A stretch of DNA of 64,000 nucleotides from Malus domestica (taxonomy: Eukaryota; Streptophyta; Magnoliopsida; Rosales; Rosaceae): positions 811,001 to 875,000 of the forward strand of contig NC_091672.1 of assembly GCF_042453785.1 (NCBI RefSeq). Reading direction: 5' to 3'. Below, in pieces: positions 12,059 to 61,798 of this stretch. Made by a program: the position numbers and the translations under genes. Each line of letters starts with the position of its first letter. Positions within the stretch are counted from its first letter, which is position 1. The notes beneath the pieces were generated by a model, which saw nothing but the letters and a program-made list of their open reading frames with translations, was not told where the DNA came from and did not search any database.

Positions 12059-13114
12059 TAGTATAAAAAACAAGGCTGAATGCCACTACGTAACGATTAA
12101 TATGTTGTCACCAGACAAGTAGAATGTCAGTTCATGACCAACAAACCCTGGAGGCTCTTGTTGAAGTTGGTGTCGTCTAATCCATGTTCCACTTGATTTC
12201 CAATCCAATATCTAGATAGCCAAGTAGCTATGCCAGCGTCGGCATCCTTGTGCTGAACACAATCCCCTCACAGACCCCAATCACCGTTCCTCCTCTAACA
12301 GAGACATTCAGTAGACAAGTGACGCGAGAGACTGTATTCGAAGTTACTCTGACAGTACAATATACCCTTCACGCTGACCAACTGAAACAAATTTGAAACA
12401 ACATTAACAATTAAACAAATTGCACGGGTTGCCAAAAGGATATATTACCTATGTCGTACAGCTACACCCTGAATGACTGCCAATTCCATCCTAAAAATGC
12501 TAGAAATGAAAGTAAAATTCTACCCCAAATTACGTAGATGCTTTTTTTTTTTTCACATATTGGCAATTAATGGGCAGATCACTATATCAGCTCTTACATG
12601 GACCACATTGCTCATCTACTTTCAGTACAGAATATAATTTATCCATACAAGATTTGTTCGTCTACCCACTTCTCCTCATCAGTTGGCCAATAGTCCAATG
12701 ACAAATCGAAAGATGAAATTTTCCAAACAAATCCCCTAATCACTCAATCGATTCCAAATTCAAACTTTAATACCCAATCGATTCAAAATTCAAACTTTAA
12801 CACCCAATCGACTCAAAAATTCAAAATTCAAAGTTCATCACAATAATGACTCGCTACAAATCTACGAATCAAGTTATAATTTTCAAAACCCAAATAAAAG
12901 AAGAATCACATGAATTTGAACAGTACCAATCAAACCAAACCATGCCCACCACCAGAAAAAGGATTTCCGATAAGAAAAATGAGATACGAAACTAACAATA
13001 CTGGAATGGTAAGAAGAGCAATGTGAAGAACAAACTAACCACTAAAAATGGTGGTTCCCAATACCAAAACACACCGAAATACCAGAAAACACCAATACCC
13101 ATTGTCCAGAAACT

Positions 13115-13437
13115 AAAATAAATCACAAAAACAGAGATAATTAGCTCAGAAATTAACTCACCAACTCAAATAGATCCCACCATTCCAAAATAAATCATTA
13201 AAATTTACCCAAGAAAAGGATAACACGAAAATAAATCACAAAAACAGAGATAATTAGCTCAGAAATTAACTCACCAACTCAAATGGATCCCACCATTCCA
13301 AAATAAATCATTAAAATTTACCCAAGAAAAGGATAACACGAAAATAAATCCCAAAAACAGAGATAATTAACTCAGAAATTAACTCACATCATCAAAATTT
13401 ACCCAAGAAAAGGATAATACGAAAATAAAATCACCTG
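13115..13437. repeat. 113-bp minisatellite, about 2.9 copies
   Basis: Units start at about 13115, 13228 and 13341, each beginning AAAATAAATC(A/C)C(A)AAAACAGAG. The first two are almost identical and the third is internally shortened. Block A' (27.72-27.84 kb) has only one unit, so the array grew, or was lost in the other copy, after the duplication. It lies inside the leader intron of the ankyrin-RCC1 gene. Confidence 0.85.
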
Positions 13438-13449
13438 TTTTTCCTCTGG

Positions 13450-13450
<1 letters not shown>

Positions 13451-13489
<39 letters not shown>
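13451..13489. repeat. GA microsatellite in leader exon
   Basis: About 19 uninterrupted GA dinucleotides, read as CT in the ankyrin-RCC1 transcript. It lies in the putative first noncoding exon. The A' copy near 27847 has only about six units. Confidence 0.95.
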
Positions 13490-13493
<4 letters not shown>

Positions 13494-13621
13494 ATTTAAA
13501 GGAGCTCTTGCTGTGTTGCGTTCTGTTCTGAAAAGAAACTGAAAGGCATAAACGCTTCTGAGAGAGAGGAGAGAACCGATTCTTTGAACTAGAAGGGCAT
13601 TTTGGGGATTAAAATTGTTGG

Positions 13622-14813
13622 GTGAAGAAAAATGTGGTGGTTCTTGGATTTGACGGAGATGGCGTTGGCGCGTGTGCTTGCGAGAGAGAGTTGGGTGGTC
13701 TCATGAGCTCTGTTCCGTTTATTGTACGAAACATATTTCTCGCACGCTGAAAATTTTGGACTGGATCTTTCCATTTATTTTGTTCTTATTATTAAAACTC
13801 AAAATTTTCAAACTGCTTTTATTAGTTTTTTTTTTTTATAAAAATTAATATAATATATTAATGTAACTTAATCGGACGATTATTCAAATTTATACAGTTG
13901 CAGAGAGCTTTTTTTAAGTGATTTTTTATTTATGAGAATCTTGACTAGAAGTAGAACCCCAAGTCACTATCTCCCAAAAGTATTGAAGAAATAAACGGGG
14001 CGAGAAGAAACAACTCATCACTAACCCGACCCGACCACACCTCCACGCTCAGACCACGGTTGGCGTTGGAGCCACTCGGTCACTGCAGACGATTAAAAAA
14101 AGTCACTTTCCCCAGAAAAAAAACGGAGGAGAAGGAAATTGGGACCTTTTTTTCGCTGCTTTGCCATTTAGGGGTTGGAACCCGCGAATTAAAATAATAA
14201 GTAAATTTAAAAAATAAAATAAAATCTCTACCTTTTCCCCTTTTCTCTATTGTTTTCGGCCAGCCGCTCATTTGCAGAAGAACCCCTTTTTCTGTTGAAC
14301 CAACGATCTCAAGTCTCAAACAGGTAAACATTTTTTTTTTAAATTTAAATTTAGATTTTGTTTGTTCTTCTCGCGTTTCTCTGATCTGCTTCATCAGTCT
14401 GATTTGCAATTTATTTTGTGAATTTAGATCCATGCATCATATATATCTACCACCCCATTCACCCATTTTTTTGGGTACTTAATTTTATTCACAAAGTTTA
14501 GAGCTTTGGATGTTTTCTTTCTGTTTTGGACAAAATATCTACTGGGTTGTATTCTTTCATTGTTTCTGCATTCTGGGCATTACCCAGATGAGATGATTAA
14601 TGTGTTGAATCACAAAAATTTGAAGTTGGATTTTCGTGTTGATCCAATTATCTTGGGTGGCAAGTTTACAAGCATGTATGATTGTAATCAGTGATGGGTT
14701 TGTTCAGATGCGTGGATTGAGTTATTTCAGTTCGTTTTGGTAGCAGGTTGGTTGTATTGAGGCTTATTTGCATTTTGTTTCGAAGCGAAAAATCGAAGCT
14801 TGATTTGGAAGAG
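13622..14813 (+). promoter_or_regulatory. AAPT1 promoter, 5' UTR and leader intron
   Basis: A leader exon appears to end at 14323 (CTCAAACAG before GTAAACATTT). The acceptor is probably one of the CAG sites between 14700 and 14760. A T-rich leader intron of about 0.4 kb is common in this gene family. The space between the ankyrin-RCC1 gene and AAPT1 may act as a bidirectional promoter. Confidence 0.5.
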
Positions 14814-17800
14814 ATGGGGTATATTGGGGCACATGGTGTGACTGCTTTGCATAAATACAAGTACAGTGGCGTGGATCACTCTTACACTGCCAAATATGTC
14901 TTGCAACCCTTTTGGAGTAGCTTCGTTAAAATCTTTCCCCTTTGGATGCCGTAAGTTTCTTAATCTTCTTCTCTGATTTTATTGATTACTGATTGACTTA
15001 AGTTAACTTTATATACTCTTCTCTTTGGCTTTAATTGGTGCTTTAATTGGTGGGTAAGGTCATGAGTTTTCTGGTGTTATAAGCTTTCATGTTTTGTTCT
15101 CGAATTTAGGTGCATAAGTTTTCTGTTTTAGTAGTTTCTGCTGGGTTTATCATGGATTTATGTTATTCACTAGTCTACGTTTGATACATTTATTTTAAGA
15201 ATACTTCGAAATGGACAAGCAAACATTTGTAGTTTGCACGTCGAGTTCGAGATCTTTAGCTGACTTCATGTAAATTTACAAACCCAACAATATGCAGCTA
15301 TGTTTTGCTTAGAAGATGGAATATTTCTTTTAATTGATAATGCGGACTTACAAGAATGAAAATTTATAGCATTTTTTTTCTGAGACTAGATAATATCTCC
15401 TTCATTGATTATGATTTTTAACATCACATGATTGTGATTTTTGCTGATGTTTGCTAACATTTTCCTTTTTTCCCTGGTTTCTTCCCACTCTTCCGTTTCT
15501 GACTTTTTCTTCAGGCCCAACATGGTAGAGTGACCTTTATTCCCAACTATGCTTAATCGTTTTTTCAAACTGTTGCCTTTCTATTGATGATTATGCTTTA
15601 TTTTTTTGCCAGATAACTCTAACAGGATTCATGTTCTTGCTCACATCTGCTCTGCTTGGCCATGTGAGTGGTTTTTTCTTATCATCTTTTAATTTTCTGC
15701 TGTTAGGTTTTCCTGTTTATAATGCTAATCTTTTAACTCAAGCTTCACATTTAGTTTTAGAAATGTTCACATTTATCTTTTACTCTGGTTTTGGTGTGCA
15801 TGATACTTAAAATGGGAATGTTATTACTTAGTAAGCTTCCCATTAATTTGTGTTATGTGTTTTTCCTAGATATATTCACCACGACTGGATTCAGCTCCTC
15901 CTAGATGGGTTAATTTCGCTCATGGATTGCTACTTTTCTTATACCAGGTTTGCTTAAATACATACATCCAAGCAGAGTTGCCTTTGATTTTTCTGTGGTG
16001 TCCTCTTTATTGTTACACATTGCTGTTTTATTTCTATCTTCATTGTCTCATTTTCTATCACTTTCCTGTTTTTTCACAAAAAAATCTTAGACCTTTGATG
16101 CCGTTGATGGGAAACAAGCAAGACGGACAAATTCCTCGAGTCCACTAGGGGAACTTTTTGACCATGGTAATGCACTGCTATCATGTTTTTTTTTTCTTTT
16201 ATTGCCTTTGTACATTCACAATTGAATATTGATGATTTATATTCTGGCGGATCTCAATGAATTGCAGGTTGTGATGCCCTTGCGTGTGCGGTATGTGTCT
16301 TCGTCTTTTCTGGTCATTTGGTACTCTGGAATTCAAGTTTCTTTTTCATGTTTTATATGTGCTTGTTTAGTTCGAAGCATTGGCCTTTGGAAGTACTGCA
16401 ATGTGTGGAAGATCTACTTTCTGGTTCTGGGTGATTTCAGCTGTTCCATTTTACTTTGCTACTTGGGAGTCGTAAGTTGTCCAACTGAGTTTGATTTTGT
16501 TATTAGTCATTCGGGAATATACCACCTCTTTTTTTTTTCTTGGGGAAAAGAGTGGGGGAGTGGGTTGATTCGATATGCTAGCATATAAGTTTGTTCACTC
16601 CATGACCCTGCATAGAATATTTCACATGTAAAAATAGAATGTTCTGATTTATGACTTTGTTGATCCAGTTACTTTACCAATACCCTAATCCTTCCTGCTG
16701 TTAATGGGCCCACGGAGGGTCTAATGCTGATATATTTGGCCCATTTTTTCACAGCTATCGTTGGTAAACTCCTAATTTCATTCTGCTACTCTACTTGTAT
16801 GTACAGCTTGAAGTTAACTTCTAAACCAATATCTAAAAACTCTTATTTTCTCTAAGTACATTTATTTCTTTACATTTTCAGGTTCTGAGTGGTGGGCTCT
16901 ACAATTTGGAAAGTCTTTGCCTTTTCTGAGTTGGGTCCCCATTCTTAGTGGTAAGGCCAAGCCTAATTTAGTTGATACCATACAAGTGATATTTGGCATC
17001 AAACACTACATTTTGCTAGACTTGACCGCATGCTATATTTCTGTATTTAATTTGCAGTACCTATCTATATAGAGCTCAATGTCTCTTTGACATGTACGCG
17101 GTTTGATTACCTTTTTTATATTTGTTGTGGATGAATATTTCTTTGGCTGCTTCACAACATATACTACTTCCATTGCAGTTGGTCTGAAATTTAATTCCTT
17201 TTTTTTTTTTTAACTTCAGAAATCCCAACATACAAAGCTGTGTTGTATCTAATGATAGCTTTTGCTGTCATCCCAACGCTCACATTCAAGTATGTAATTT
17301 TCTATTCCCTAATTTTTTGAAATTTGAGTCTTAACTTTCTCATGTATAATAATTCTTTCTGTTTTTTCTTTTATAACTTATTCCTGAGCTCTTAATACAT
17401 GTATCATGAATTTTTCAACTCAATTGTTATTTTTCTAATGGTTCTCTATATGGAACCTGTAAATTGTTATCCATACTACTTTTGGCATATCTGTGAAGAC
17501 TCAAGCTACAGAAGCAGGGTTGCATTGCTAACCACACATTGTGGGCATGAACTCAGAACTATTATGTTGCTATCTTCATGATCTTACTAATCTAGAAATC
17601 CTTGGGGTATGGGATTGAATTAATATTACCATTTTCTATAGATATAGCAGCAATCTGGTGTTAATATTCACATGATTTTTTTATTTTTTTTTATTTTTTG
17701 TGAGTGCCTTGGTATAGTTTACCACTTCCCCAAACTATTCATGTGTCAGAGGCTCAGAGCTCACGTATAAACTTAAGAACAGTCCTTTGAAGGCCATTAG

Positions 17801-19330
17801 ACACTTGGACCTTATGTTGGATTATGCTTGTGTGCAGTGTATCCAATGTTCATAAGGTTGTTCAAGCAAGGAAAGCAAGTATGATATTGGCACTGGCAAT
17901 GGTATTGTTTTTATCTTTCGGATTTTATGCTAGTTCTAGACACTTGATTGGCCTAATGGGTGTTTCATGTTGTTTCTTCTCAGATTTACCCTTTTGTAGT
18001 CCTTTTGGTAGGAGTTTTGGCATGGTATGTCTTTATACTTTGCGTCCACCCCTGTTTTTTTTCCTTAAAATTATTGCTATTTTTTATTTCTTTTAAAAAA
18101 TGGTTTCAATGTAGTAATAATTTATTTGCAGGGGTTACTTGTCACCAGCTGACATTGTGGGGAACTATCCACATTTAGTCGTTTTGGGAAGTGGGCTTGC
18201 TTTTGGGTACCTTGTGGTAAGATATCCGTGTTTCTTTATAACCGTATCTTTTGAAAGTGTGGTTTGTCCATCTCGAATGTAATTGCTTACTATCAGGGCT
18301 GTGACTGTGCTAGATTTCCAATGTCGTTCTAAGGGGTCTTGTAGACAACCAAATTGTTTTTTCAACCATTGTTGTTGAAAGGAAAGCTCTGTTTTGGCAG
18401 GGAAGATTGATTCTTGCGCACTTGTGTGATGAGCCAAAGGGTTTGAAAACTGGAATGTGCATGGTATGCAACAATCCCAAAACTGCTGGAAATTTACAGT
18501 CTGTTGAGTGTGTATTTCTTGAAACGCTGTAATAGCAGCATTATATTTCTCAGAATTGGTTAATATCAACAACTTCTGCATGGTTTTTTTTTTATAATTC
18601 AAGACCAGATTATATTACTAACTTCAATATTTATTATTCTGTGCAGTCATTGTTGTATCTTCCATTTGCCATTGCAAATGCACTCACAGCTAAACTGAAC
18701 GATGGGTATGTTGTATTTGATATAATGTCGTGAGCTCTTTAAGTAAAAACGGGATTCTTCTGTTCTTGATAGTCTAGATGTTTCTGATTTCTTGAACTTC
18801 CTGTGTACCTTTTTGTTGCAGAGTTCCTTTGGTTGATGAGAGCTTGGTTCTTCTTGGTTACTGTGCATTTACAGGTATGGTAATTTGTTATGAAGGTCTG
18901 CGTATTGGAAATACATGACACACTACCATTTTTATGGATGTAGTATGTACATACGAATTTCATTACACAGTACCATACCTCGTGGCTGAATTTCACTTTT
19001 CTCTGAATGCAGCGACACTCTATCTTCACTTTGCAACGTCAGTCATTCACGAGATCACAACAGCCTTGGGAATCTATTGCTTTAGGTGAGAATGTGTGTT
19101 ACATTCAAAATCGAAGCATATTACTCACCAAGTCCAAATAATTTTTTGACTAATACAGCCTGAAATTTGATTGAGCATGGTGTTCTGTGCTCATTCTTTC
19201 ACCTAGACGACAGTTTGCTTCCGTTCACCAAATTTTGTTCCTTTTCTTTGGAGTGCCAATTGATACCGTACTTTTGATCCTAACTTGCGGTTTCTTGTCG
19301 AATTACAGGATAACTAGGAAGGAAGCTTGA
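14814..19330 (+). CDS. AAPT1: Aminoalcoholphosphotransferase (choline/ethanolamine phosphotransferase)
   Basis: Eighteen exons: 14814-14950, 15515-15524, 15613-15663, 15870-15947, 16091-16166, 16268-16290, 16371-16471, 16669-16763, 16882-16950, 17220-17289, 17838-17901, 17984-18024, 18132-18216, 18401-18463, 18647-18705, 18822-18874, 19013-19085 and 19309-19330. They sum to 1170 nt, or 389 residues, the same length I recall for Arabidopsis AAPT1. The enzyme joins CDP-choline or CDP-ethanolamine to diacylglycerol in the ER, the last step of phosphatidylcholine and phosphatidylethanolamine synthesis. The CDP-alcohol phosphotransferase motif DG(x2)AR(x8)G(x3)D(x3)D is complete across exons 5-6 (DGKQAR...GELFDHGCD). 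Several hydrophobic helices follow, and the C-terminus is FRITRKEA. The start is the family MGYIGAHGV; an in-frame upstream extension exists but is not family-like. Exon 2 is only 10 nt. Confidence 0.96.
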
Positions 19331-20118
19331 GTTATGCCGGTGTCAACTTTAGGGTACCTTTTATTCTCGGTACATGTATTGTTTCGATAAATACAACATT
19401 AGAAATATTGACATTGCATCCATTTTCTCCTTTCTCTACATCTTTTCCAATTTTTGTTCCGGCCCTGCGGGCTAAGTCGAGAATGATGCAGCTCGAGCGA
19501 GGTTTTTCGTCAGTATAATTTTGTTCTCAGATGAGTGAAGAGAGTGATTAAAATCCATTTCAATTCGTTCTTGCTGTTGTATAAGATTATGTTTTGTTTC
19601 TTTCCGAATAGCGTTACGGATTTGGGCATATTTTCTCTTCCCTTTGATCCATAAGATTTGGTAATTAGGGACCTCATGTTCTCAATCTTCATTATTAAGT
19701 AGGCCTCATGTTTGACTCCTATGAACGATAAATTCGATACCTAAACCCTAGTCCTAATTTCAATTGGTCTATTGTGTGGCTTAGCTTAAGTCCTCGTCCC
19801 AATATCGTCGTTTTAAAAAACAAAAACAAAAAAAAACTTCATTTTCAATATCTTTATGCCTATATTGTAATCTTCAACGGCCTCAACCACAGCTATCACA
19901 TTTATTGTTGTAAACTGAAGGCATTCCATCATCAAAGGAGCAATCGCAACTGGCTCCTATAGGCTACAGCACAGCACATGCTTTCCCCATGTGCTTCCAG
20001 TCGTTAAACCGTTTTTCTTGTTGCTGGACGTAACAGCCAAGATTCATTAGTTGGCAACTCTAAACAACGTGATTACTTATAATCTAATCTAGTATCCATC
20101 TAACAACTAACAACTAAC

Positions 20119-20693
20119 CAGAGGCGGTGCTGAGGGGGAGCGAAAGGTGCAATTGCTCAGGGTCTCCAAATTTGAAGGGCCCCCAATTTTGGTATCTTAA
20201 ATTTATATGTAATAATGTTATATATTAGAAAAAATATTGTTATTAGCACTTTAAAATCTTATAGTGCATTTTTATAAGTGTAAATTTTTTTGTTCTTCTA
20301 AATATAAAAATTTGGAGTGCATAATGAGATAGTAGGAGTGCTAATAACAACACCTTAAAAAACGACTTTCTTTTCAATTTTATTAATTATATAATAATGT
20401 TATATATTCAAGTGAAATTCTAAAGTTAGAGTTTTTGAAGCTTTTTTTCTTTCTTTATTTGCTTGCTTAAGATTGAACTGTTTTTTATTATTTCGTGAAA
20501 GTTATGTTTGTAACTCTTTTTACTTATTTAATGACATTTGTAAACTTACAATTAATGAGTCGTAAAGGTTGTTTGGATTTAAGTTATTATTTTCTAGTAC
20601 TAATATATTGTCATACTTTTAAAATATATATCTTAAAAAGGGGCCTTTTTATAAATTTCGCACAGGGCTCCCGAAATCTCAAAGACGGCCCTG
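20119..20693. mobile_element. Non-autonomous hAT element with 8-bp target duplication
   Basis: The element begins CAGAGGCGGTGCTGAG and ends CTCAAAGACGGCCCTG, imperfect inverted ends of hAT type. It is flanked by perfect 8-bp repeats CAACTAAC at 20111-20118 and 20694-20701. It is 575 bp, AT-rich, with no transposase frame. It sits inside block B and is absent from B', so it arrived after the duplication. It hosts a nested MITE. Confidence 0.85.
20237..20350. mobile_element. 114-bp MITE nested in the hAT element
   Basis: Perfect 14-bp terminal inverted repeats TTGTTATTAGCACT and AGTGCTAATAACAA enclose an AT-rich core. A relative with the same GCACTCCAAA/TTTGGAGTGC type of ends lies at 36820-36908. 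Confidence 0.8.
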
Positions 20694-20840: not shown

Positions 20841-21894
20841 GCGATTCGTGCCACTTTGTCCCAAAACCTTAACCTCGACCAGAGTAACCTATCGTTTAAA
20901 GAGTCTCGACAAATGGGGAACAAAGAGATGGGGAAGAAACCAAATAAATAACAGATTTCGGGAAGGGGAAAAACAAAGCGAGTCACAACATGTAACGGGC
21001 AAAACGACTGTTAGACGAATAATGCCGTCGTACTCATACAGCATGGAGTAAAACTATCTGCTATATTAAGTGAAATTTAAGCAGTAAAACAAGAGAAAAA
21101 TGGTGTAGGACAAGCACAATTGCTCTCACAAAGTCAACACTTCACAATTCAAATCTAAATTCAGAGTTTAATACACGGTGCAGCCGCTGCATTCAAATTA
21201 TCGTTCAGTCATCAACCGGAAGTGAACAGTCCAGGTCGATTCTTCCTCCATGACTCACCGTAGATGCCTGGCACGACACTATTAAAAAAAAAAACAAATT
21301 AAACCCACATACATTACGGTATTCCAATTCAACTAATGACAGTCCGTAAACATCTGGCAGATCATCTGTAAGAACACTATTAACTTGTATAGAAATAATC
21401 TGTCTAAAAATACTAGCGAAAACCTCAGAACTTTTTCAGTTTAAATTGCCACATTTCCTGGACAGTACGTAGAGGCCACAAAAACCTATCGAAATTATGT
21501 GACCGAAGGAGATATAAACCCTTCAAAATGTTCAGGTGTTTTGTTTATGGTGCTTTGAATTCAGAAACTAATTCGAGCATTTGTTAGACAGCCCGTTATG
21601 AACAGAGAGAAATTCTTCTATGCCAAAATAGATGAGTAAACTAGAGTGAAGGTATACGAACAAAACTCAACATCTATACTAGTATTAAGAAGTTGAAAGC
21701 CACAAAGGAGGCTAAACCATGAGATGTAAACTGATTCCTTTTTAAATGGCATCCCAATCCCACATTACATACTGGCTCGTGATACTATCACATCCAAAAA
21801 CATCATAGCAAAGTACATATAGTGAAGTCTAATATAACATAATGATAAGATTTTATCACCTAATGATATCGGACAAGAGAAGGATGTTAGAATG
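20841..21894. other. 3' flank and likely 3' UTR region of ssSPT
   Basis: No independent gene is recognised. A possible minus-strand spliced exon at 21278-21212 would follow a GT at the ssSPT stop. It is more simply 3' UTR or chance. Confidence 0.4.
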
Positions 21895-22869
21895 TTACCT
21901 CTTGCCAAACTCCATTAAATATCGCGACACATTGAAAAACACGAACCACAGCAACACAATGACCAAAGTATCTGTCAAGATTAAGGAACTGAAAAATGCA
22001 ATATAACAGCAGAGAGGAAGCTGGAGAACCCTAAACTAAATCTGACAAAAAATGATGGGATAATTAGTAAAAATCTTGAATCCTCATCAGTATTACTTCC
22101 TCAAAATGCATTTTTCCGGCTATTCATCAAGAGCTATAGCATTGCACCATATGGCAGATGCTGATGACCAAAAACACAATTTTTTAGGATACTTATATAT
22201 GACAGTATGGTAGAAAAAAGTAAAACAAGCTCAGAAATATGGTCAGTTCTTACTTCTCAGTACACGTTGATATGAGAAACTGCCAAAGAAGAGGCACCTT
22301 TCCAAATCATAACAGCAAGAAGAAATTTCTTACAAGCTCAAGAAAAATGCCAAGGGCCATTTGATAACTAGTTCGTTCTTAGTTTTTAGTTTTCACTTTT
22401 TGTGCTTGAGATATGAGGGAAGTATACAAAAAATGGAGGGAAGAAGAAGGTGATGACAGAGAGGTGAAGAAATAAAGAAGAAGGAATAAAACATAGTCTT
22501 GAAAGTGAACACAACTTGAAATGATTTTGGTTTTTAGTTTTGATTTTGTGTGTCTTTCCTTTTATTACATCTCTCATTTCTCCCATGTATTTCCCTCTAT
22601 CTCTACACAAAATGAAAATTACAAACGAATGTTATCAAACGTTCTTAATTGTACACTCTAGACTCACATGTTAAAGGAAATAAGTTTAATCATAAAAGTA
22701 TGTAAACCTATGTGATCTCTAAACTAAAACAAGACAAATATCAAGATGAACGAAGAAGAAAAAAAGATGTAAAACGTAGGATACTGAAGAGACAACGCTC
22801 CCACCAATCCAACATATAGAGCCCAAATGTGACATTGTAGAGATAGATCTTTCGTTGAACCCAATTCAT
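21895..22869 (-). CDS. ssSPT: Small subunit of serine palmitoyltransferase, 53 residues
   Basis: Two exons, 22869-22785 and 21971-21895, joined through a GT-AG intron of 813 nt. The protein starts MNWVQRKIYLYNVTFGLYML, then DWWERCLFNTLVIVLLWFV, and ends SRYLMEFGKR. This is the short plant ssSPT family (about 56 residues), which binds the LCB1/LCB2 heterodimer in the ER membrane and strongly stimulates condensation of serine with palmitoyl-CoA, the first step of sphingoid-base synthesis. One membrane helix spans about residues 28-44. Cys replaces the Tyr I expect after WWER. The stop TAA overlaps a GT that could act as a donor (AG/GTAACA), so a longer spliced tail is possible but unlikely. The acceptor-like TTTGTAG about 12 nt before the ATG implies a leader intron reaching into block A'. 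The frame is too small for routine gene finders. Confidence 0.93.
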
Positions 22870-23076
22870 AACTCCACAATCTACAAACAATAAGTTAAAA
22901 ATACATAAACAATGTAGAAGAAAATATACATAAGTACATCAATACAAGAAAAATATCAATTCACAGAAATTCCAGTAATATAAAATCTAGTCGGATGAAG
23001 TTGACAGAATAGCTTATAGCTTGGCTACACACACGCGCATGCACGAGTACATGTAAATGTATCTAAGATCCAACCC

Positions 23077-23114
23077 TGAATGACTGCCAAATCCATCTTC
23101 AAACATGCTAGAAT
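23077..23114. repeat. Block A', gene-proximal piece
   Basis: The stretch ACCCTGAATGACTGCCAAAT with the following CCATCTTCAAACATGCTAGAAT matches the ankyrin-RCC1 leader intron at about 12467-12508. It is cut off at a TAGAAT repeat by the 4.1-kb insertion and resumes at 27207. Confidence 0.7.
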
Positions 23115-24769
23115 ACAACAACAACAACAACAAAGCCTTTTCCCACTAAGTGGGGTCGGCTATATGAATCCTAGAACGCCATTGCACTCGGTTTTGTGTC
23201 ATGTCCTCCGTTAGATCCAAGTTTTTATTCTTCTGTTGAGATCTCCATCTAATTCTCCGTTCTCTTGCAAGATAGATCCTAGGTAGCGAAAACGGTCACT
23301 TTTTGTGATCTTCGCTAGATTGCTCCGGTCATTAGTGTGGATAAGTATATAAATGGATAGAGATAGGAAAGCAAACACAAGATGTACGTGGTTCACCCAG
23401 ATTGGCTACGTCCACGGAATAGAGGAGTTCTCATTAATTGTGAAGGGTTTACACAAGTACATAGGTTCAAGCTCTCCTTTAGTGATTACAAGTGAATGAT
23501 TTACTACAAATGACATTAGGAAATATTGTGGGAGAATGATCTCGTAACCACGAAACTTAAGTACCGGAGTGTGGTATCGTCTTGACTTGCCTTATCTGTC
23601 TCATAGGTAGATGTGGCATCTTCTCTGGAAGTACTCTTCCTCCATCCAGGGGTGGTATCTGTAACTGGTGGAGATGCACAAGGTAATGTATCAATTTCAC
23701 TTGAAGCTTACTTGTAGTTTCAGGCTTGGTCAAGCGCGATACAAACCATGTAGTAGGAGTCCCCCAAGTCGCCGAGCTAGGGTATCTGCTGAAAGAGGTG
23801 ACAGACAAGGTAAGCAATCAGAGCTCCGGCTGATTGTTCACATTCTCCCTATCTTGCAGGCAGCATGAAGGATAAAGAGAAGAAAAATGAGAAGAGATGA
23901 TATGGGATACTTTTGCTTTTGAAGAAGTAACTTTCCACAGGCTTATTCTTGAACTGGGCTGGAGGGTTTTCTGGTTTCCTCCAGAGTATAAGGCCAACTG
24001 AAGAATTTGAGGGTCAAAACAAGTCCATCAAATCTAGAGTACGTTCGACCCTGCTGATATGGGATACTTTTGCTTTTGACAGAGTAGTGGATGTATCGGC
24101 ACGTGTGCTGTTACGCTTGTCTCCACATGCTTCCTTGTATCCTTCTCACTTGCCCTAGCTGTTCCTCAGGCAGATGTGGTATCTTCCCTGGAAGCCTAAG
24201 ATGTTGAAGATGAGTACTCGAGAGCAATGCCAGGTAAGTAATTCCAGGCAGTCAGTTCCTGGCTGGAAGCTTGATTCCAAGTGCTGACTGATTGCTCTCT
24301 TTCTCCTTGTCTTGCAGGTAAAAACAAGGCCAAAGGAAAAGACAGGGAAAAAGCATGATATGGGATACTCTTGCTTTTAACCCTGATGATATAAGATATT
24401 CTTGCTCTAGTATAGCTTGTTTACAGAGGTATTATCGGGGGGAAAGAAAGCTGAAAATTTCGAAAGGCTTCGTTGGGAGTGCCCTCTCAGATAAGAGGAA
24501 GGGTTGAGCATTTTTGCAGGTCTGCCTGTCCGTTGGGGATGGATGTCGACATATATAGGAGTCTCCCTAACATCAAGTAATAATGCTATTCCTTTACCCT
24601 GCTTGGTCAGAGCACGGTAGTGGGAGCTGTCAGCTTCACATGTTTTAACTCTGTCAGAGCACTTTGAAAAAGTGGTATGTGGTATCTGGAAAGCTGATGT
24701 TGCGTGTGAAGATTACAGACAAGCTTTATCCAAGGAGATCCAGCTCTTGAAGTTGGGAAAGAGGTGCCT

Positions 24770-25548
24770 CTTCGGTTTTCGAACAAGCAATCCTGTCGGG
24801 GATCTGGCTCTCGAGATTTGGAGAACGATGCCTCTTCGATTTTTGAGAAAGCAATCCTGCTGGGGGTCTGGCTCTCGAGATTCGGAGAGCGGTGTCTCTT
24901 CGATTTTTGAGAAAGTAATCATGGTGGGAGTCTGGCTCTCGAGATTCGGAGGGCGGTGCCTCTTCGATTTTGGAGCAAGCAATCTTGTTGGGAGTGTTTT
25001 CTCGAATGTGAGTAAAGGTTGGGCATGTTTGCTAGTCTACCTTGCCACGAAGCACAGAGGTTGACACACAGGGACTTTCCAACTATCCAGCAGTGGTACT
25101 GTTCCTTTACCCTCTCTTCGATTTTTGAGAAAGTAATCATGTTGGGAGTCTGGCTCTCGAGATTCGGAGGGCGATGCCTCTTCGATTTTGGAGCAAGCAA
25201 TCTTGTTGGGAGTGTTTTCTCGAATGTGAGTAAAGGTTGGGCATGTTTGCTAGTCTACCTTGCCACGAAGCACAGAGGTTGACACATAGGGACTTTCCAA
25301 TTATCCAGCAGTGGTACTGTTCCTTTACCCTCTCTTCGATTTTTGAGAAAGTAATCATGTTGAGAGTCTGACTCTCGAGATTCGGAGGGCGGTGCCTCTT
25401 CGATTTTGGAGCAAGCAATCTTGTTGGGAGTGTTTTCTCGAATGTGAGTAAAGGTTGGGCATGTTTGCTAGTCTACCTTGCCACGAAGCACAGAGGTTGA
25501 CACACCGGGACTTTCCAATTATCCAGCAGTGGTACTGTTCCTTTACCC
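24770..25548. repeat. Tandem arrays: about 63-bp units, then 218-bp units x3
   Basis: Units starting CTCTTCGATTTTTGAGAAAG and containing TCTGGCTCTCGAGATTCGGA repeat at about 63-64 bp up to 24895. Three near-identical 218-bp units then start at 24895, 25113 and 25331. The open frames in this region are by-products of the repeats. Confidence 0.88.
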
Positions 25549-25870
25549 TTATGGGTAATAATATGGTAGCTAGACCTTCAAAATTTATGTGTCTAAACTT
25601 TGGTAGTGTTGTTTCTTTGCTATTCTTTTACCCTTCTTGGTCAGAGCGATGTAGTGGGAGCTGCAAGCTTCACATGTCTCAACTTTGTCAAAGAACTTTG
25701 GCAAAGTTATCTGTGGTACCCATGAGCTACTGTTGCGTGTGGGAAGTGGGTGATTGAACAGTACGATTCATGTGCTTTCTACTTCGCCAGAAATCTTCGA
25801 CAGAATGCCCATAATTTCCGCAAAGCTAAGTGTGCGTGTGACAGGTGCTGACGAGGCTGGAAAAGTAGGT

Positions 25871-26110
25871 GCCTCTTCGATTTCTGAGATCGGCCCTCGT
25901 GGTCTCTGAGCAGCCCAGCTTTTGAGAAAGCAAGCCTCTTCGATTTCTGAGATCGGCCTTCGTGGTCTTTGAGCAGCCCAGCTTTTGAGAAAGCCAACGC
26001 CTCTTCGATTTCTAAGATCGACCCTCGTGGTCTCTGAGCAGCCCAGCTTTTGAGAAAGCAAACGCCTCTTCGATTTCTGAGCAGGCGCCTCTTCGATTTC
26101 TGAAGCTTCG
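25871..26110. repeat. Tandem array of about 63-bp units, four copies
   Basis: Units starting GCCTCTTCGATTTCTGAGAT at about 25871, 25933, 25998 and 26063, followed by a short partial unit. Each contains CGTGGTCTCTGAGCAGCCCA. The start word resembles that of the array at 24.8 kb, so both may derive from one ancestral motif. Confidence 0.85.
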
Positions 26111-26236
26111 TCGAGTGCAGATTTTTATAGGGGCTGACATTAAGTTCCAAAGCACACTTGAATATCCACCAGTAGAAGCTCCATTCTTGCACTTCTAAGA
26201 TCTTGATTTGTCCGACCTCTTCTCTCTTCAACACCT

Positions 26237-26917
26237 TTGAAAATGTCTGGCCCCTCCGACCGTCGTTTTGACTTGAACCTTGTTGAAGAGGTAGCCCCGC
26301 CTTCTCCAGACAACATATGGTGCCCATCCTTCGTCTCCCCTACTGATCCTCTTACTGTTGGGGATTCCGTGATGAAGAATGATATGACCGCTGCGATAGT
26401 GGCCAGGAACCTTCTCACTCCCAAAGATAACAAACTACTTTCCAAACGGTCTGATGAGTTGACTGTTAAGGATTCTCTGGCTCTCAGTGTTCAGTGTGTA
26501 GGTTCTGTGTCTAATATGGTCCAACGCCTATTTGCTCGAACCCGCCAAGTTGAATCATTGGCGGCTGAAGTGATGAGTCTCAAACAGGAGATTAGAGGGC
26601 TCAAGCATGAGAATAAACAGTTGCACCGGCTCGCACATGACTATGCTACAAACATGAAGAGGAAGCTTGACCAGATGAAGGAATCTGATGGTCAGGTTTT
26701 ACTTGATCATCAGAGATTTGTGGGTTTGTTCCAAAGGCATTTATTGCCTTCGTCTTCTGGGGCTGAACCGCGTAATGAAGCTTCAAATGATCAACCTCTG
26801 ATGCCTCCTCCTTCTAGGGTTCTGTCCAGTACTGAGGCTCCGAATGATCCCCCTCCGGTGCCTTCTCTTTCTGGGGCTCTACCGACTGCTGAGACTTCTT
26901 CTAAGCAACCTTTGTGA
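26237..26917 (+). CDS. Uncharacterised coiled-coil frame inside the 4.1-kb insertion
   Basis: An intact frame of 226 residues; the internal start at 26243 (MSGPSDRRFDLNLVEEV) is as likely. The middle (about residues 105-160) is a clear amphipathic coiled coil (ARTRQVESLAAEVMSLKQEI, then HENKQLHRLAHDYATNMKRK). The C-terminal 60 residues are Pro/Ser-rich with three loose repeats of the type (N/S)(D)(Q/P)P-P-S(R/G)(V/A)L. No enzymatic motif is seen. It is followed by an AATAAA-like signal and the element's right end. I do not recognise a function; it may be an element-encoded structural protein or a captured host fragment. Confidence 0.45.
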   Translation: MKMSGPSDRRFDLNLVEEVAPPSPDNIWCPSFVSPTDPLTVGDSVMKNDMTAAIVARNLLTPKDNKLLSKRSDELTVKDSLALSVQCVGSVSNMVQRLFARTRQVESLAAEVMSLKQEIRGLKHENKQLHRLAHDYATNMKRKLDQMKESDGQVLLDHQRFVGLFQRHLLPSSSGAEPRNEASNDQPLMPPPSRVLSSTEAPNDPPPVPSLSGALPTAETSSKQPL

Positions 26918-27206
26918 AGGCTCCCTCTTGTTTGTTTATTTTGACTCAAGTATATATACATATTTGTAACTGATCGGGGATATCAATAAATCAGCTTTCC
27001 TTCATTTCAACGTATTGTGTTAAATACACCAAAGCCTTCTTCGCTAAGTTCTTTGAATTTTCTTTTGTTGAAGCTTGTATGTTGAAGCTTTGTGAGTGGA
27101 GCATGTAGGTTGAGGTAGTGTTCCCTTAATTTCCCGAGTGAGGAAAACTTCTCGGTTGGAGACTTGGAAAATCCAAGTCACTGAGTGGGATCGGCTATAT
27201 GAATCT

Positions 27207-27317
27207 TAGAATGAAAGTAAAATTTTACGCTCGAACTATATAGATATGTTAGCAATTAATGGCAAGATCACTATATCAGCGGTAACATCAACCGGATTGC
27301 TTGCTTGCAATATACAT

Positions 27318-27358
<41 letters not shown>

Positions 27359-27962
27359 ATACCATCATTTTATGAAAACCCAGACATAAACTAAGACTTG
27401 CTTCTGCTCAACTGTTGGCTAATAATCCAATCACAAATTGAAACATAAAAACTTCGAAACAAATCCCCAAATCACCCAATCAACTAAAATGTAAACTTTA
27501 TCACAACTAGCCACAAAACTCACTGATCAAGTAATAATTAACATAAAATAAATAAACTAAATAAAAGAAAAAAGCACATGAATTTGAGTACCAAATTATC
27601 AATCAAAGAAAATAAAGGATTTACAGGAAGAAAATGAACCAACTGACCACCAAAAATGGTGGTTTCCAAAGCACATCAATATACCAGAAAACAATCAACA
27701 CCCATTTTACAAAAACTAGTATAAATCACAAAAACAGAGATAATTAGCTCACCAACTCAATTGGATCGTATCAAATTCCAAAATAAAATCGCAAAATATA
27801 ATTAAGCAATACAAGAATAATATGAAAATACCTGACTTTTCCTCCGCGAGAGAGAGAGAGAATTTAAAAGGCTGTGTTGCGTTCTGTTATTTTCTTTCTT
27901 CAGATAGAGAGGAGAACCGCGTCTTTTAACTAGAAGGGCATTTTGGGGATTATCATTGTTGC
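27207..27962. repeat. Block A', distal piece (copy of the ankyrin-RCC1 leader and promoter)
   Basis: This runs in the same order as 12508-13621: ATGAAAGTAAAATT, GGCAAGATCACTATATCAGC, AAAAATGGTGGTTTCC, the single minisatellite unit, a leader-exon donor (GAGGAAAAGTCAG before GTATTTTC near 27829), a short GA tract at 27847, and AGAAGGGCATTTTGGGGATT at 27930. In minus orientation this places a promoter-like region and first exon upstream of ssSPT. Confidence 0.75.
27317..27359. repeat. AC then AT compound microsatellite
   Basis: About 12 CA units are followed by about 9 TA units. The array is absent from the matching place in block A, so it is copy-specific. Confidence 0.95.
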
Positions 27963-55398: not shown

Positions 55399-55810
55399 TG
55401 ATTATAAAAATGAACGGTTCTGATTGTTAATAGCAATTATACACTTTTGCTTCCTTGTCGTCAAAAGAACCTTTTTTCACAGTTCACTATAAAGCCTATA
55501 GCTGATGATGTGCTTTGGAAGTGTGCTTTGGAAGTATTAGCATATGCTTGACATCTTAAGGTTGAAGAAATTATTGCCTCAAATTCAATGCAGGAACAAG
55601 AATACTTAGGAAAAGTAAACAAAAAATTAAAGAAATCGAATCATTCTCTTACGAAAGGAAACCCAGAAGAAACCTTAGGCTATAGCTACCTTGTTCCCAA
55701 CCCCTTCAGAATGTATATATAAGACGAGAGAAAGAGAGGCCTTCATATATTTCTTTTGCATTCCCTTGAACTGAGACCCTAAAAGAGAAAAAAAAAAATA
55801 TTTCTCTCCA

Positions 55811-56677
55811 ATGGGAACCAAACCTGCAGCACAGCATGAGCAGCGTCATGAGGATTTTAAACCGCGTTGCCAATGGAAGCAGGAAGGAACTCAGGTTCTT
55901 GAAGTTCATCTACCAGGTATTACTAGGTCAAATCGAATTTTGGCTAAATATCGAGTACTTTTTTATGCATCAATGTAGAGTATACATTGCCTTTCAAGTG
56001 ACTTCCATTCACCGGTTAAATTTCATGAAATTCTTAGCGCATATCTAACTGTGTGTTAAATTCAGTAATGCATGCTATACTAGAATTTTTGTTAAAGGTG
56101 TGATCTAGATTCATAATCCAAATATGAGCTTGTACATGCAATATGTAAGCATGACAATTGTCTGACAACATAAGTTTGGCAAGAGACCCGAGTTTCGTTT
56201 CATCTTCTCTTACATACTTTTTGATTTACTTGTTGATGCATGCGTACAGGTTTCAGAAGACAAGATATTAGAATTCACAAAAACACGACGTTGGGCACCC
56301 TAACGATTAGCGGAGAGCAACCTAGGGTTGAAGAAACTAAATCTGTTGCTTTACCCAGACGCTTCCGTAAGGAGATCAAAATTTCTAAACATTTTAATAC
56401 GGACGGAATCAGCGCTAAGTTTTTCGGTGAAATTCTTTACGTAACTATTCCAAAGGAAGCTCAGCATTCAACATGGTCGTCGGTTAGTGACTACTTAGTT
56501 TGTTTAAGAAGCAAAGTTTCGAGGCCAAGACTGAGCAAGAAGAGGGCTGTGACGGCGGTGGTGATTGTTCTGGTCGTGGCTCTGGGAGTTTATGCAGTGT
56601 CTAGATTTCCAAAGTCAACTAGCTCCCTGATGCCTCTGATCAAGTTCCCTGAATGCCCTTGTAGCAATACTAACTAG
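55811..56677 (+). CDS. HSP20-like membrane-anchored protein (RTM2-like), copy A1
   Basis: Two exons, 55811-55916 and 56250-56677, give 177 residues. The family is an alpha-crystallin (HSP20) fold followed by a C-terminal membrane anchor, as in Arabidopsis RESTRICTED TEV MOVEMENT 2 and relatives. The crystallin part runs from CQWKQEGTQVLEVHLPGFRR through TLTISGEQP, RFRKEIKIS and GISAKFFGEILYVTIPK. A membrane helix follows (AVTAVVIVLVVALGVYAVS, about residues 136-154), preceded by basic residues (RPRLSKKR). RTM2 limits long-distance movement of potyviruses and lacks heat-shock behaviour; the function here is inferred from architecture only. The intron position (after the LPG codon) is the same as in copy A2. 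Confidence 0.87.
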
Positions 56678-57389
56678 TACCGTTGAAAACTGTAATCAAT
56701 TACAATCATAAAGTATTACCAAATACATAAACCACACATTAATGTATATGATTTTAAAGATTTAGGAAAATATAGCTATATGAATATTAATTTATAACCT
56801 ATACTTGCTCATTTGTTATGGAGTAAAAACCTATACTTTTATCCTGTTCAAATAACTATATGAGAGTTCACTTATAACGAAGGGGGAAAGTTTAGAATAG
56901 AAATGGCTATGTTTTTGGCTCATCTATGCTATGCATCAGTTGGTGTTGTTAACCCCATTTGTACTCACACTGAGCATTTATCGTAACAAAAATGCGACTA
57001 TCTTTTCACCTATGTATAACTAATTAAGGAGAGCAAAGCGGCTTGTAGATAACGTTTAAGAGCATTTATCTTTGCAGCCGAAGTCTTGTATATACAAAAA
57101 AAGTATTATTAAGGAAGAAGTTTAGAAATCGAAACTCTGTAGTTAACACACAATTGCAAGCATAGAAGCTTAGGACTGCAAATACATGGGAAATAATGAC
57201 GAATCCTATCGTTAGATCCCTTGAAGCTGAATACACTTCTATTTAACTACAAAATGTTAGAAAGGCGCATCAGCTAGCTAAGATTCTCTGCATGCCTTGT
57301 TTTAAAGAAATGCAAAGACAGAAAGCAAGATATATAAAGGTTAGGATATTAGACAAACTAAAGAACAATTCTTGATCTTTGTAGATCGA
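56678..57389. other. Spacer repeated between HSP20-like copies
   Basis: No gene. From about 56770 to 57390 this region matches 60640-61300 (for example CGAAGTCTTGTATATACAAA, GGACTGCAAATACAT and ACAATTCTTGATCTT). It is the spacer of the duplicated unit. Confidence 0.7.
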
Positions 57390-57501
57390 CCAAGCCTACA
57401 AGAAACCTGTAAAGAACATTATATGTTCTTACGAGGATTTATGCCTTATTGCAAGTTCCCTAAAGAGGATCGAATCGACACTTACAAGATTCCTCTCCAT
57501 G
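57390..57501 (+). pseudogene. HSP20-like first-exon remnant, copy B1
   Basis: Matches the first exon of copy B2 at 61316-61427: GFMPYCKF against DFMPNCKF, then KEDRIDTYKIPLHG against KEEQFDTYQIPLHG. The donor (CATG/GTACTC) is still there. The intron is followed for only about 65 bp before it joins an annexin exon 3 fragment at about 57570, so the second exon is absent. Confidence 0.8.
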
Positions 57502-57565
57502 GTACTCTTCTGTTTCATGTTCTTTGTTTTGTTATTTTTTTTACATATGAAAAAGATGCAAAGAT

Positions 57566-57660
57566 TATATTTGTACAATCCACGTATAATCCAATTATTT
57601 CACTACGATAATCGTGATTATATTTTGTGAGATAAGTTTAATGAATGTAATTTCTTGAAG
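57566..57660 (+). pseudogene. Annexin exon 3 and intron fragment, copy 2
   Basis: TTGTACAATCCACGTATAATCC (first 20 bases matched) and CACTACGATAATCGTGATTA match both the annexin gene and the fragment at 55332, including the same changed donor. The stretch GATAAGTTTAATGAATGTAATTTCTTG resembles annexin intron 3 at 50525. It forms the junction between the two HSP20 units. Confidence 0.8.
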
Positions 57661-58422
57661 AACGTCTGATCAATTCTTATTAGCTACCTTACTCTGGTTC
57701 ACAAAGGTGCACAGTGGCAACCCTCTCGGAGGAGAGAGGATCATAACACTCGGAGGGCCTTTCCTCATCCGAATTGCGTATCAAATTTTCATCATACACA
57801 TCACAAACCAAAATAGTTCATTTCTTACGTCATATAATTTAAAGATCATCGCTCAAAAAATTAACTTAATAAAACAGTTTGATATGGTTAAAATCCTCAT
57901 CAGGAACCGTCAATTTGTTGATAATGGCTAATTGATCCCTAATCTGATTAATTTTTAAAGAGATGATATTAAATAGTTATTGAGAAATTGAACGGTTCTA
58001 ATTGCAGATTGTTAATAGCAATTATACGCTTTGCTTCCTTGTCGGCAAAATAACTTTTTTCCACAGTTCAGTATATACGCTTTGCTTCCTTGTCGTCAAA
58101 ATAACTTTTTTCCACAGTTCAGTATAAAGCCTTTAGCTGATGGTGTGCTCTGGAAGTAGTAGCATATGCTTGATATCTTAAGGATGAAGAAATTATATCA
58201 ATGCAGGAACACGAAAACTTAAGAAGAGTAAAAAATAAAAAATAAAGAAATCGAATCATTCTCTTTTGAAAGGAAACCCAGAAGAAACCTTTTAGGCTAT
58301 ACCTACCTTGTCCCAACCCTTTCAGCATGTATCTATAAGATGAAAGAAAGAGAGACCTTCATGTATTCCTTTTGCATTCCCTATTGAAACCCTTAAAGAG
58401 AGAAAAGAATTATTCATCACCA

Positions 58423-59314
58423 ATGGAAACCAAAACTGCAGTACAGGATGAGCAGTTTTATGAGGATTTTGAACCGTTTTGCCAATGGAACAAGGAGGAA
58501 GGATTTAACATTCTTGAAGTACATCTACCAGGTATTACTAGATCAAATTGATTTTGACTAAATATCGAGTCCTTCTGTTATGCATCAATGTATAGTATAC
58601 ATTGCTTTTTAATTGACTCAGATTCGCCAGTTAAATTTCATCAAATTCTCAGCGCACATCTAGTTGTGTGTTATATTCAGTAATAATACATGCTATACAA
58701 TAACTCCGCTAGAATTTTTGTTAAATTGTAGTCAAGATTCACAGTCTAAATATGAGCTTGTACATGCAATGCGACAATGTGAACATGACAATTGTTTGGC
58801 AAGAGACCAAGTTTCCTGTCATCTTCTCTTACGTAATTTTTGTTTTACTCGTTGATGCACGCATGCAGGTTTCAAAAGACAAGATATTAGAGTTCAAATC
58901 AACAATTTGGGCATCCTAAACATTAGCGGAAAGCAACCTAGGGTTGAAGAAACTACATCTGCTTTACCCAGCCGCTTCTGTAAAGAGATTAAAATTTCTA
59001 AAAATTGTACTACGAACGGAATCCGCGCTAAGTTTTCTGGTGGAATTCTTTCCATAACTATTCCAAAGAAAGCTCAGCATTCTAACGCATCAGCTGGATC
59101 ACACGGGGCAGATAATGCTGCATGGTCGTCAGTTAATGACTACTTAGTTTGTTTAAGAAGCAGAGTTTTGAGGCCAAGACTGAGCAAGAAGACAGCGGTG
59201 GTGGTTATTCTGGTCATGGCGCTGGGAGGTTATGCAGTATCTAGATATCCAAAGTCAGCTAGCTCCCTGAATGCCTTTGATTTGAGGGAACTTCCATCAG
59301 ATCAAGTTCCATGA
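58423..59314 (+). CDS. HSP20-like membrane-anchored protein (RTM2-like), copy A2
   Basis: Two exons, 58423-58531 and 58869-59314, give 184 residues. It aligns end to end with copy A1: CQWNKEEGFNILEVHLPGFK, LNISGKQPRVEETTS, RFCKEIKIS, KFSGGILSITIPKKAQHS, then an extra stretch of about 11 residues (NASAGSHGADN) absent from A1. The basic segment RPRLSKK, a membrane helix (AVVVILVMALGGYAVS) and the tail DLRELPSDQVP follow. The frame is intact. The same inferred role as A1 applies. The two copies differ at many residues, so the duplication is not recent. Confidence 0.87.
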
Positions 59315-61315
59315 ATGCCTTTGTAGCAATACTAGCAAACTAGCAAGTACCGTTGAAAAACTGTAATCAATTATAATCATAACACCATATATATTAATTA
59401 ACCGACTAAAGTAATACCAAATACACAAACCACACACAATATTAAAATTAAAAGATTTAAGAAAATACAGCTTGTGAAATAAAGAGTGGCACTTATAGAT
59501 ATATATATATATTTTTTTAAAGGACTAGTTGGTAGCTTCGCCACCACAATCCACCATTCTAGGGGTTGGGAACAAAAAGATTCACAGAAGCATTTCAATC
59601 TTCTCATAACCATGTTGTGTGGAATATGAGTTTGAAATTTGTCTCCAACTACTAAACCAATTAATGAAGGAAGAGTAGGAAATGAATGAATAAAAAGAGA
59701 TAAAGTGGTAGACGTACGTTCTTTCAAAGATGAAGGATTGGAGGAAGATAATAGAATATTAACATTAAATTCAACGTTTTAGGGAGGGGGGAGAGGGGAG
59801 GGAGGAGGGGCGAGGGAGAAAATAGTGAAGCTTAAATATGAAAAGAAATATCTATTCGATAATGCTTGTGTCTTTGGGGTACTTATTTGTCCTCTTATAT
59901 ACGATTAACGAATTTTTACTATCCAAACATCATAATCGAAATCATTCATTCTCTTTATTATCATTTAAAGATCCTATTTGCAAAAAATCATTTCATTTAG
60001 AGATATTTTAGCCATTCAAATGCATACAACAAATGAACAATTCACCATGAAAATATTACTTGTTACCAAAACCGTTGCAATTTTCTTTTCTTTTTTTTGT
60101 CGAAAAGCTGAACTTCATTAAATTTAAAACATATCATTGCAATTTTTCTTAATATTGCATTACATTGAAGAATAAAATGGGCCGCGAGCCATGGTCACCT
60201 TTGGCCCCTAAGGTGGCTCCGCGCCATTGTACTTGGTTGATGTTTGCTAGGGTATAGCAATGTGTTACCAATGAGAAAAAGGCGCAAAAATAAAAAATAA
60301 TATATTTTAATGCATTAGTGAGTAGTGACCATAGTGGTGTGGCCATTAGTACTTTTTAGCTTTTTTCCCTTATTTTTCTAATTGATAACTTCATTGGTAC
60401 GCCAACAACCACCAAATAACTACTAGTCTTTGTAACTATTGCTCGCTTTTCCGATAGTGGTATTTGCTCATTTGATGATGCTAGAGAGATTAATTATTGT
60501 AATTATATGTTGTAGACCACATGATGCAGCGATTAATGATTATTTTCTTTTAAAAAAAAATATTTAAAAAAAAAATCTAACCATAAACCGGCACATCATA
60601 TTGTCTATCAAATTTAATCTTTCTAGAATTTTCCTTGCTTATTTGTTGGGAATAAAAACCTATACTGTTAGCTTGTTCATATACCCATATGAGAATTAGT
60701 TTATTAAGAAGGGGGTAGTTTATAAATATAAATAGTTGTCTTTGGCTCCGCTATGGTGTTGTTGACTCCATTCCAGAATTTACTGTAACAAAACTACGAC
60801 TATCTTATAACCTATGTATTACTAAGAAGATCGAGCAAAGAGGCTTGTAGAGTTTGTAACAAAAAAAAAAGGCTTGTAGAGCTAGTGGTTAAGAGCATTT
60901 CCCTTTGCAACCGAAGTCTTGTATATACAAAAAAATATTATTAAGGAAGAATTTTAGAAACAGAGAGTCTTTATTTAATACACAATTGGAAGCATAGAAG
61001 CTTAGGACTGCAAATACATTGGAAATAATGATGAATCCAATCGTCAGATCCCTTGAAGCTGAATACACTTTTATTCAACTACAAAATGTTAGAAAGGCAT
61101 CATCAGCTATAGCTAAGTTTCTCTGCATGCCTTGTTTTAAAGAAATACAAAGACAGAAAGCAAGATAAAAGATATTAAACAAACTAAAGAACAATTCTTG
61201 ATCTTCGTAGATCGACCAAGCCTACAAGAAACCTGTAAATAAGATGAAGCTATATATACTATATACCTCTGACAGAGCCAAAAATCTAGAAAAGTAGCTA
61301 GTGACTGATTATCCC
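59315..61315. other. Spacer with about 1.15 kb of unit-specific insertion
   Basis: 59340-59480 and 60640-61315 match the spacer after copy A1. The 59480-60640 piece between them has no counterpart there and is an unclassified insertion containing GA-rich DNA (59780-59830) and no recognised gene. Confidence 0.5.
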
Positions 61316-61798
61316 ATGGATTCCAATGGTGAATTCGTTGACATTATACGTTCTTACGACGATTTTATGCCTAATTGCAAGTTCCTAAAAGAGGAACAAT
61401 TCGACACTTACCAGATTCCTCTCCATGGTACTCTTCATATTCTTTGTTTTGTGTATTTTAACATATGAAAAATATACAAAGTTTATATGTAGATTCACCA
61501 TATTTATTTAAAGCTTGGCCAAAGTTAATAATTCTTTAAGAGACTTCTCATACTATTTGTTTCTTTAATTACACACTTTGCTCATCAATTTTAAATAGAA
61601 GTTTTCTGATACGTTTAAATTTTTGGTTTTCAAGATTGAACAATTCATCAAGCTAGCGTGAACGACAAGAAAGGAACAATAAAGCTGAGGGCCAACGGCC
61701 GATGGGTGGAAGTAGATTGAGCCGCTTCCGCCAAAAATTCAAACTTCATCGCAATGTTTATAACACTAAGGATATTCATGCAAGGTTTGGCAACGGTG

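Follow-up and report, generated by a model that had tools for sequence, protein, structure and literature searches.

Retrogenes are known to recruit the promoters or leader exons of host genes. In tomato, a copy of the gene SUN was placed in an intron of DEFL1 by the element Rider, and its expression is attributed to the DEFL1 promoter (PMC7072075). Shuffling of untranslated regions (UTRs) and promoters in chimeric duplicates has been described in Drosophila yakuba, where the cases are tandem duplications in a population sample with RNA sequencing (PMC5460883). Here we analyzed a 64,000-nucleotide stretch of the apple (Malus domestica) genome, hereafter the window (C12:811001-875000; C labels are contigs of one 19-contig, 651-Mb genome), which contains a copy of ssSPT and a neighboring ankyrin-RCC1 gene. 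Its alignments show the C12 copy of ssSPT to be a chimeric duplicate: an ankyrin-RCC1 start region stands in place of its own, and the leader intron is a hybrid of the two. Taken as a whole, an account in which this two-source gene probably arose before the apple whole-genome duplication, lost its counterpart on C14 and would be driven by the acquired region appears likely to us.

By analogy, tomato SUN is the nearest precedent for the C12 chimera, as both involve a DNA-level gene copy in an intron of an unrelated gene and an ancestral copy elsewhere. However, in tomato the host gene itself was hit, a retrotransposon was the carrier and raised expression is reported (PMC7072075), whereas the apple ankyrin-RCC1 gene remains complete and what ssSPT carries is a second copy of its 5' end. 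The apple event also looks far older and is known from sequence alone. The chimera resembles the D. yakuba cases (PMC5460883) in that the 5' end of one gene, promoter plus UTR, was duplicated and joined to other sequence. It differs in having a dispersed duplicate as its 3' partner and a junction within the leader intron, which adds no new protein part and so leaves the ends of the ssSPT protein unchanged. Like a retrogene, C12 ssSPT is a dispersed copy with a start region from an unrelated gene. Nevertheless, an origin as a retrocopy was rejected because the copy retains its coding intron, its 3' flank and some of its leader intron, as in a DNA-level duplicate. The accessible portions of the literature on apple ssSPT and on Rosaceae chimeric genes contained no report of this locus. 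Capture of a promoter or leader by chimeric duplicates is already known; the unusual point here is that a single genome still contains both parents and the native state.

According to a review, ssSPT stabilises serine palmitoyltransferase (PMC9113257). The window protein is SPT_ssu-like (Pfam PF11779, E 1.3e-21, 76.4 bits against a cut-off of 29.8) and matches the Arabidopsis chain 7yjk_C at E 4.9e-23. Protein and DNA searches placed ssSPT copies on C12 (the window), C3 and C11, all encoding 53 amino acids with an identical exon structure. The protein search (9 of 9 candidates scored) also gave a hit on C9 and a pair on C16, which at E values of 0.45-5 were not counted. The other listed matches of the DNA search (40 of 206 candidates scored) fell within query positions 464-761, a repeat in the coding intron. 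This repeat of about 0.2-0.3 kb (22352-22640) is 71-81% identical to many places in the genome and is also present in the C3 and C11 copies.

The evidence for a replaced start region comes from comparison of the three copies. The ssSPT-derived segment of the window aligns with C3:5267564-5269893 in pieces of 76-84% identity and with C11 in pieces of 73-88%. C12 follows C3 from 20913 to 23026, passes through a CA/CG microsatellite (~23027-23066) and continues from ~23068 as A', a copy of block A of the ankyrin-RCC1 gene. The switch from ssSPT leader intron to ankyrin-RCC1 sequence thus lies at ~23.03-23.07 kb. On C3, ssSPT has its own leader exon with a CT tract, ending at 3004 of stretch L026 and followed by a leader intron of 515 nt to the acceptor TTGTTTGTAG; on C11, the leader exon ends at 2958 of stretch L027 and the leader intron is 455 nt (exons and introns of both leaders are splice-site readings, not transcripts). 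Similarity between C3 and C11 continues through the leader exon and promoter (pieces of 80% and 69%) and in pieces on to C3:5276572, which argues that their layout is the older one. The C3 leader and promoter had no match in the window, and a genome search with these 671 bp, in which 40 of 67 candidates were scored, recovered them on C11 alone, the other listed hits being short simple-sequence matches. Since C12 carries ankyrin-RCC1 sequence where C3 and C11 have a native leader, we read it as a chimera with a replaced start region. Its 5' part derives from an unrelated gene that is still intact elsewhere (block A on C12 and C14), its coding part comes from a different gene, the parental copies of which, on C3 and C11, retain another start region, and the native start region is absent from the chimera, both in the window and among the genome candidates scored.

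The source of the acquired region is the neighboring gene, in whose open reading frames Pfam detected ankyrin and RCC1 repeats. Contigs of this genome pair by similar stretches as C12/C14, C3/C11 and C16/C13. These pairings fit the apple homeology in PMC3033827, which gives 3/11 and 13/16 as two of four fully homeologous pairs and groups chromosomes 4, 6, 12 and 14 in a set with more complex relations. A homoeologous ankyrin-RCC1 gene at C14:491463-498926 aligns with window positions 6.1-13.7 kb in pieces of 79-92%. Self-comparison of the window confirmed the original prediction that a same-strand copy of block A lies upstream of ssSPT, and recovered five colinear pieces: 13028-13233/27636-27830 (73.7%, E 1.7e-29), 12669-12769/27401-27500 (80%, E 4e-18), 13555-13620/27898-27961 (86%, E 3e-14), 12466-12505/23073-23113 (90%, E 3e-7) and 12557-12612/27246-27301 (80%, E 1e-6). 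The copy was said to stand immediately upstream of ssSPT; it does lie there in colinear order but is split by a 4.1-kb transposon (23115-27211). When a 562-bp part of A' (27400-27961) was searched against the genome, A', A and the C14 counterpart of A were the sole places matched at E<=0.001, with all 3 first-look candidates scored. Assembly error is an unlikely source of the pair, because A and A' differ by 10-26% in matched pieces and the C3, C11 and C14 counterparts lie at separate places.

The ends of A' show what was captured. Its similarity to A stops at 27961, corresponding to 13621 in A, whereas A and its C14 counterpart remain similar to 13719, so that A' holds only ~130 bp on the exon and promoter side of the donor. 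Beyond the block, A has a probable acceptor AG at 12383-12382, giving a predicted leader intron of 1053 nt, 969 of which lie inside block A. The captured sequence is therefore indeed from the leader intron, but it is most of that intron rather than half as had been proposed. This acceptor was left behind in the capture, making the ssSPT acceptor the natural partner of the A' donor. The latter is intact (CAG/GT, last exon base 27832, GT at 27831-27830). The proposed acceptor about 12 nt before the ssSPT ATG was located 11 nt before it (AG at 22882-22881), and the suggested splice from about 27829 to about 22880 is refined to 27832 joined to 22880, an intact A' donor to an intact ssSPT acceptor. 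The predicted hybrid leader intron is 4951 nt long at present and would be ~854 nt without the transposon. Its two-part composition, ankyrin-RCC1-like on the 5' side and ssSPT on the 3' side, agrees with the C3/C11 layout having been replaced from the middle of the leader intron outwards. The only ATGs upstream of the start codon in the predicted leader lie near its promoter end (5 and 20 nt from 27961); from the CT tract to the start codon there is none. The intron-enhancement motif TTNGATYTG occurs once in the A intron and not in the A' stretch 27217-27826; we draw no claim from it.

Table 1. Features of the ssSPT chimera and its donor region, in window positions
Feature	Position	Strand	Basis
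Block A, donor copy: ankyrin-RCC1 promoter end, leader exon, most of leader intron	12466..13621	-	self-comparison; C14 homoeolog 79-89% in pieces
ssSPT-derived segment: 3' flank, coding exons, coding intron, acceptor-side part of native leader intron	20913..23066	-	alignment to C3, C11
ssSPT coding region: exons 22869-22785 and 21971-21895, 53 codons plus stop	21895..22869	-	splice model and translation
ssSPT 5' UTR part of exon 2 (predicted, 11 nt) after acceptor AG 22882-22881	22870..22880	-	TTGTTTGTAG; acceptor common to C3, C11
A' part 1: inner piece of ankyrin-RCC1-type leader intron, joined to ssSPT intron	23068..23114	-	90% to 12466-12505; junction alignment
Young high-copy transposon within A'	23115..27211		matches at least 33 further sites at 97-99% over at least 3.8 kb (scored: 34 of 7281 candidates, counting this copy)
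A' part 2: donor side of ankyrin-RCC1-type leader intron	27217..27831	-	colinear with 12557-13346 and C14; donor GT 27831-27830
A' leader exon with CT tract and captured proximal promoter	27832..27961	-	86% to 13555-13620; aligned with A and C14-A

We propose that an ancestral ssSPT segment of ~2.1 kb, including the coding intron and 3' flank, was cut within its leader intron and joined to a copy of the 5' end of the ankyrin-RCC1 gene. The captured part would comprise ~130 bp of proximal promoter and leader exon plus most of the leader intron of that neighbor. Transcription would begin in or near the A' leader exon, whose start is a predicted position only and whose bounds come from sequence. 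The A' donor (27832) would then be spliced across the hybrid intron to the native ssSPT acceptor (22881), placing the ssSPT protein, with no residues added, under ankyrin-RCC1-type control.

A leader common to two genes cannot alone tell donor from receiver, and in principle the A-type leader could first have belonged to ssSPT and then been captured by the ankyrin-RCC1 gene. We regard this polarity as extremely unlikely. The ankyrin-RCC1 genes on C12 and C14 both carry A with similarity flanking it on both sides, ssSPT on C3 and C11 shares a different leader inside a longer mutual similarity, and only short pieces of these longer stretches are found in A' and in the C12 ssSPT segment. Alternatively, one mobile element, in the style of a Helitron or Pack-MULE, may have carried and fused both fragments. 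Two gene fragments of different origin, head to tail and in one orientation, would suit such a carrier. Against this, a search for terminal inverted repeats framing 20.9-28.0 kb gave none that was convincing, only matches between A/T runs near both outer ends (best 25 of 33 pairs), so that the inverted repeats that frame captured fragments in a Pack-MULE were not seen and no carrier element emerged; the search addressed inverted repeats only, Helitron ends aside. We consider transport by a single element very unlikely.

Is the borrowed start region in use? The splice sites of C12 ssSPT are intact, and its frame contains no stop or frameshift. Changes private to C12 affect 9 of 162 coding columns compared with 126 of 1079 noncoding columns (p=0.021), and only 3 of 85 columns in exon 1. 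The intact frame and splice sites, together with slower change in coding than in noncoding sequence, suggest that C12 ssSPT uses the borrowed start. The promoter and leader of A' carry 19 private changes in 135 columns, against 80 in 357 for the distal intron alone (p=0.044). Several observations count against such use. The same 19 of 135 compared with the whole A' intron (123 of 592) gives p=0.09, no clear excess of conservation in the promoter and leader. The ratio of nonsynonymous to synonymous substitution rates is 0.31 for C12-C3 and 0.21 for C12-C11 versus 0.06 for C3-C11, which indicates weaker selection on the C12 protein. Finally, the 4.1-kb insert may have damaged the link of A' to ssSPT. 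The substitution-rate ratios also fit a silent or decaying C12 ssSPT, with the fusion structural only and A', behind the insert, not driving the gene. Six residues unlike both C3 and C11, five of them at positions 33-43, the young transposon in the leader intron and the missing C14 counterpart also favor a silent copy, but the kept frame and splice sites and the lower rate of coding change run counter to it, and we judge it rather unlikely.

The transposon bears on a further possibility, that C12 ssSPT is expressed from another start, either a cryptic promoter in the remaining half of the ssSPT intron or the transposon itself. The element lies between A' and the gene, and a new start is compatible with the sequence. 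However, 22.88-23.03 kb is leader-intron interior in C3 and C11; for the same reason a native C12 promoter at 22.9-23.07 kb found no support. Moreover, the 236-amino-acid open reading frame of the transposon (26207-26917, plus strand) is antisense to ssSPT, and the A' donor is kept intact. Expression from such a start is therefore clearly unlikely in our view. The identity of 97-99% between this transposon and its other copies points to a recent arrival. The sequence TAGAAT stands at both ends of the element, and its 236-residue product matched no Pfam family above the cut-off. Other copies have an extra right-end stretch of 72-79 bp (like query 95-173) that the copy at 23115-27211 holds only in part.

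When were the two parts joined? Kimura two-parameter distances in ssSPT noncoding sequence are 0.214 for C12-C3, 0.253 for C12-C11 and 0.157 for C3-C11; in block A they are 0.377 for A'-A, 0.339 for A'-C14 and 0.159 for A-C14. After filtering of doubtful columns at three thresholds, ssSPT lay at 1.35-1.42 times the homoeolog distance and A' at 1.41-1.79 times, every lower bound exceeding 1. Both halves are thus ~1.4-1.8 times as diverged as the whole-genome-duplicate pairs, which would place the fusion before that duplication. In addition, residue 39 is V in C12 ssSPT and in Arabidopsis 7yjk_C and L in C3 and C11. Both duplications and the fusion therefore probably preceded the whole-genome duplication in apple, and the C14 copy was probably lost afterwards; this dating relies on equal rates and one informative residue (V39). 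The unfiltered ratios do not sit easily with a single date, as they differ between A' (2.26, 1.89-2.77) and ssSPT (1.50, 1.27-1.77); on these values, A' could be an older duplicate to which ssSPT was joined later. Faster change on C12, or two separate events, may also account for the distances.

The surroundings of the chimera differ between C12 and C14. Only 461 bp beyond the ankyrin-RCC1 gene on C14 (at C14:499388), the next match is at window position 52.2 kb. This jump from 13.7 to 52.2 kb means that the ssSPT region and everything in between are absent from the C14 junction. The ~38.5 kb of C12 concerned (13720-52211) is pieced together from a C16-like stretch, repeats and the ssSPT chimera. 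Beside the chimera, 13886-19653 resembles C16:4103703-4109501: identity is 82% in the initial 208 bp and 94-95% across 14212-19652. Its similarity to C13, which pairs with C16, is weaker (pieces of 77-92%). The C12 stretch looks like a recent insertion from C16; a Pfam search of two open reading frames of the gene at 14-20 kb matched no family. Just downstream of the ssSPT segment, 20119-20693 is a high-copy repeat of ~575 bp, 84-92% identical to dozens of places. Farther away, 55438-61488 contains large diverged direct repeats (77-84%) that have several counterparts on C14 and may represent a tandem gene family.

What does the chimera mean for ssSPT in apple? The original prediction of an unrelated start region for ssSPT holds for the structure of the C12 copy, one of three. 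The C3 and C11 copies keep their own leaders, and thus the ssSPT supply of the plant as a whole is not rewired. Because parents, native state and junction are present in one genome, the order of events and the regulatory consequence are directly testable. If C12 ssSPT is expressed, it would be a natural experiment separating the function of the ssSPT protein from its native regulation. Tentatively, and with more doubt than confidence, we suggest that an old fusion from before the whole-genome duplication keeps a third, altered ssSPT alive under ankyrin-RCC1 control via the hybrid intron, as a preserved, neofunctionalised promoter swap within a core pathway of lipid metabolism. If so, an ssSPT with six residues unlike its sisters, one of them as in Arabidopsis, would have gained a tissue or stress pattern that the native copies lack.

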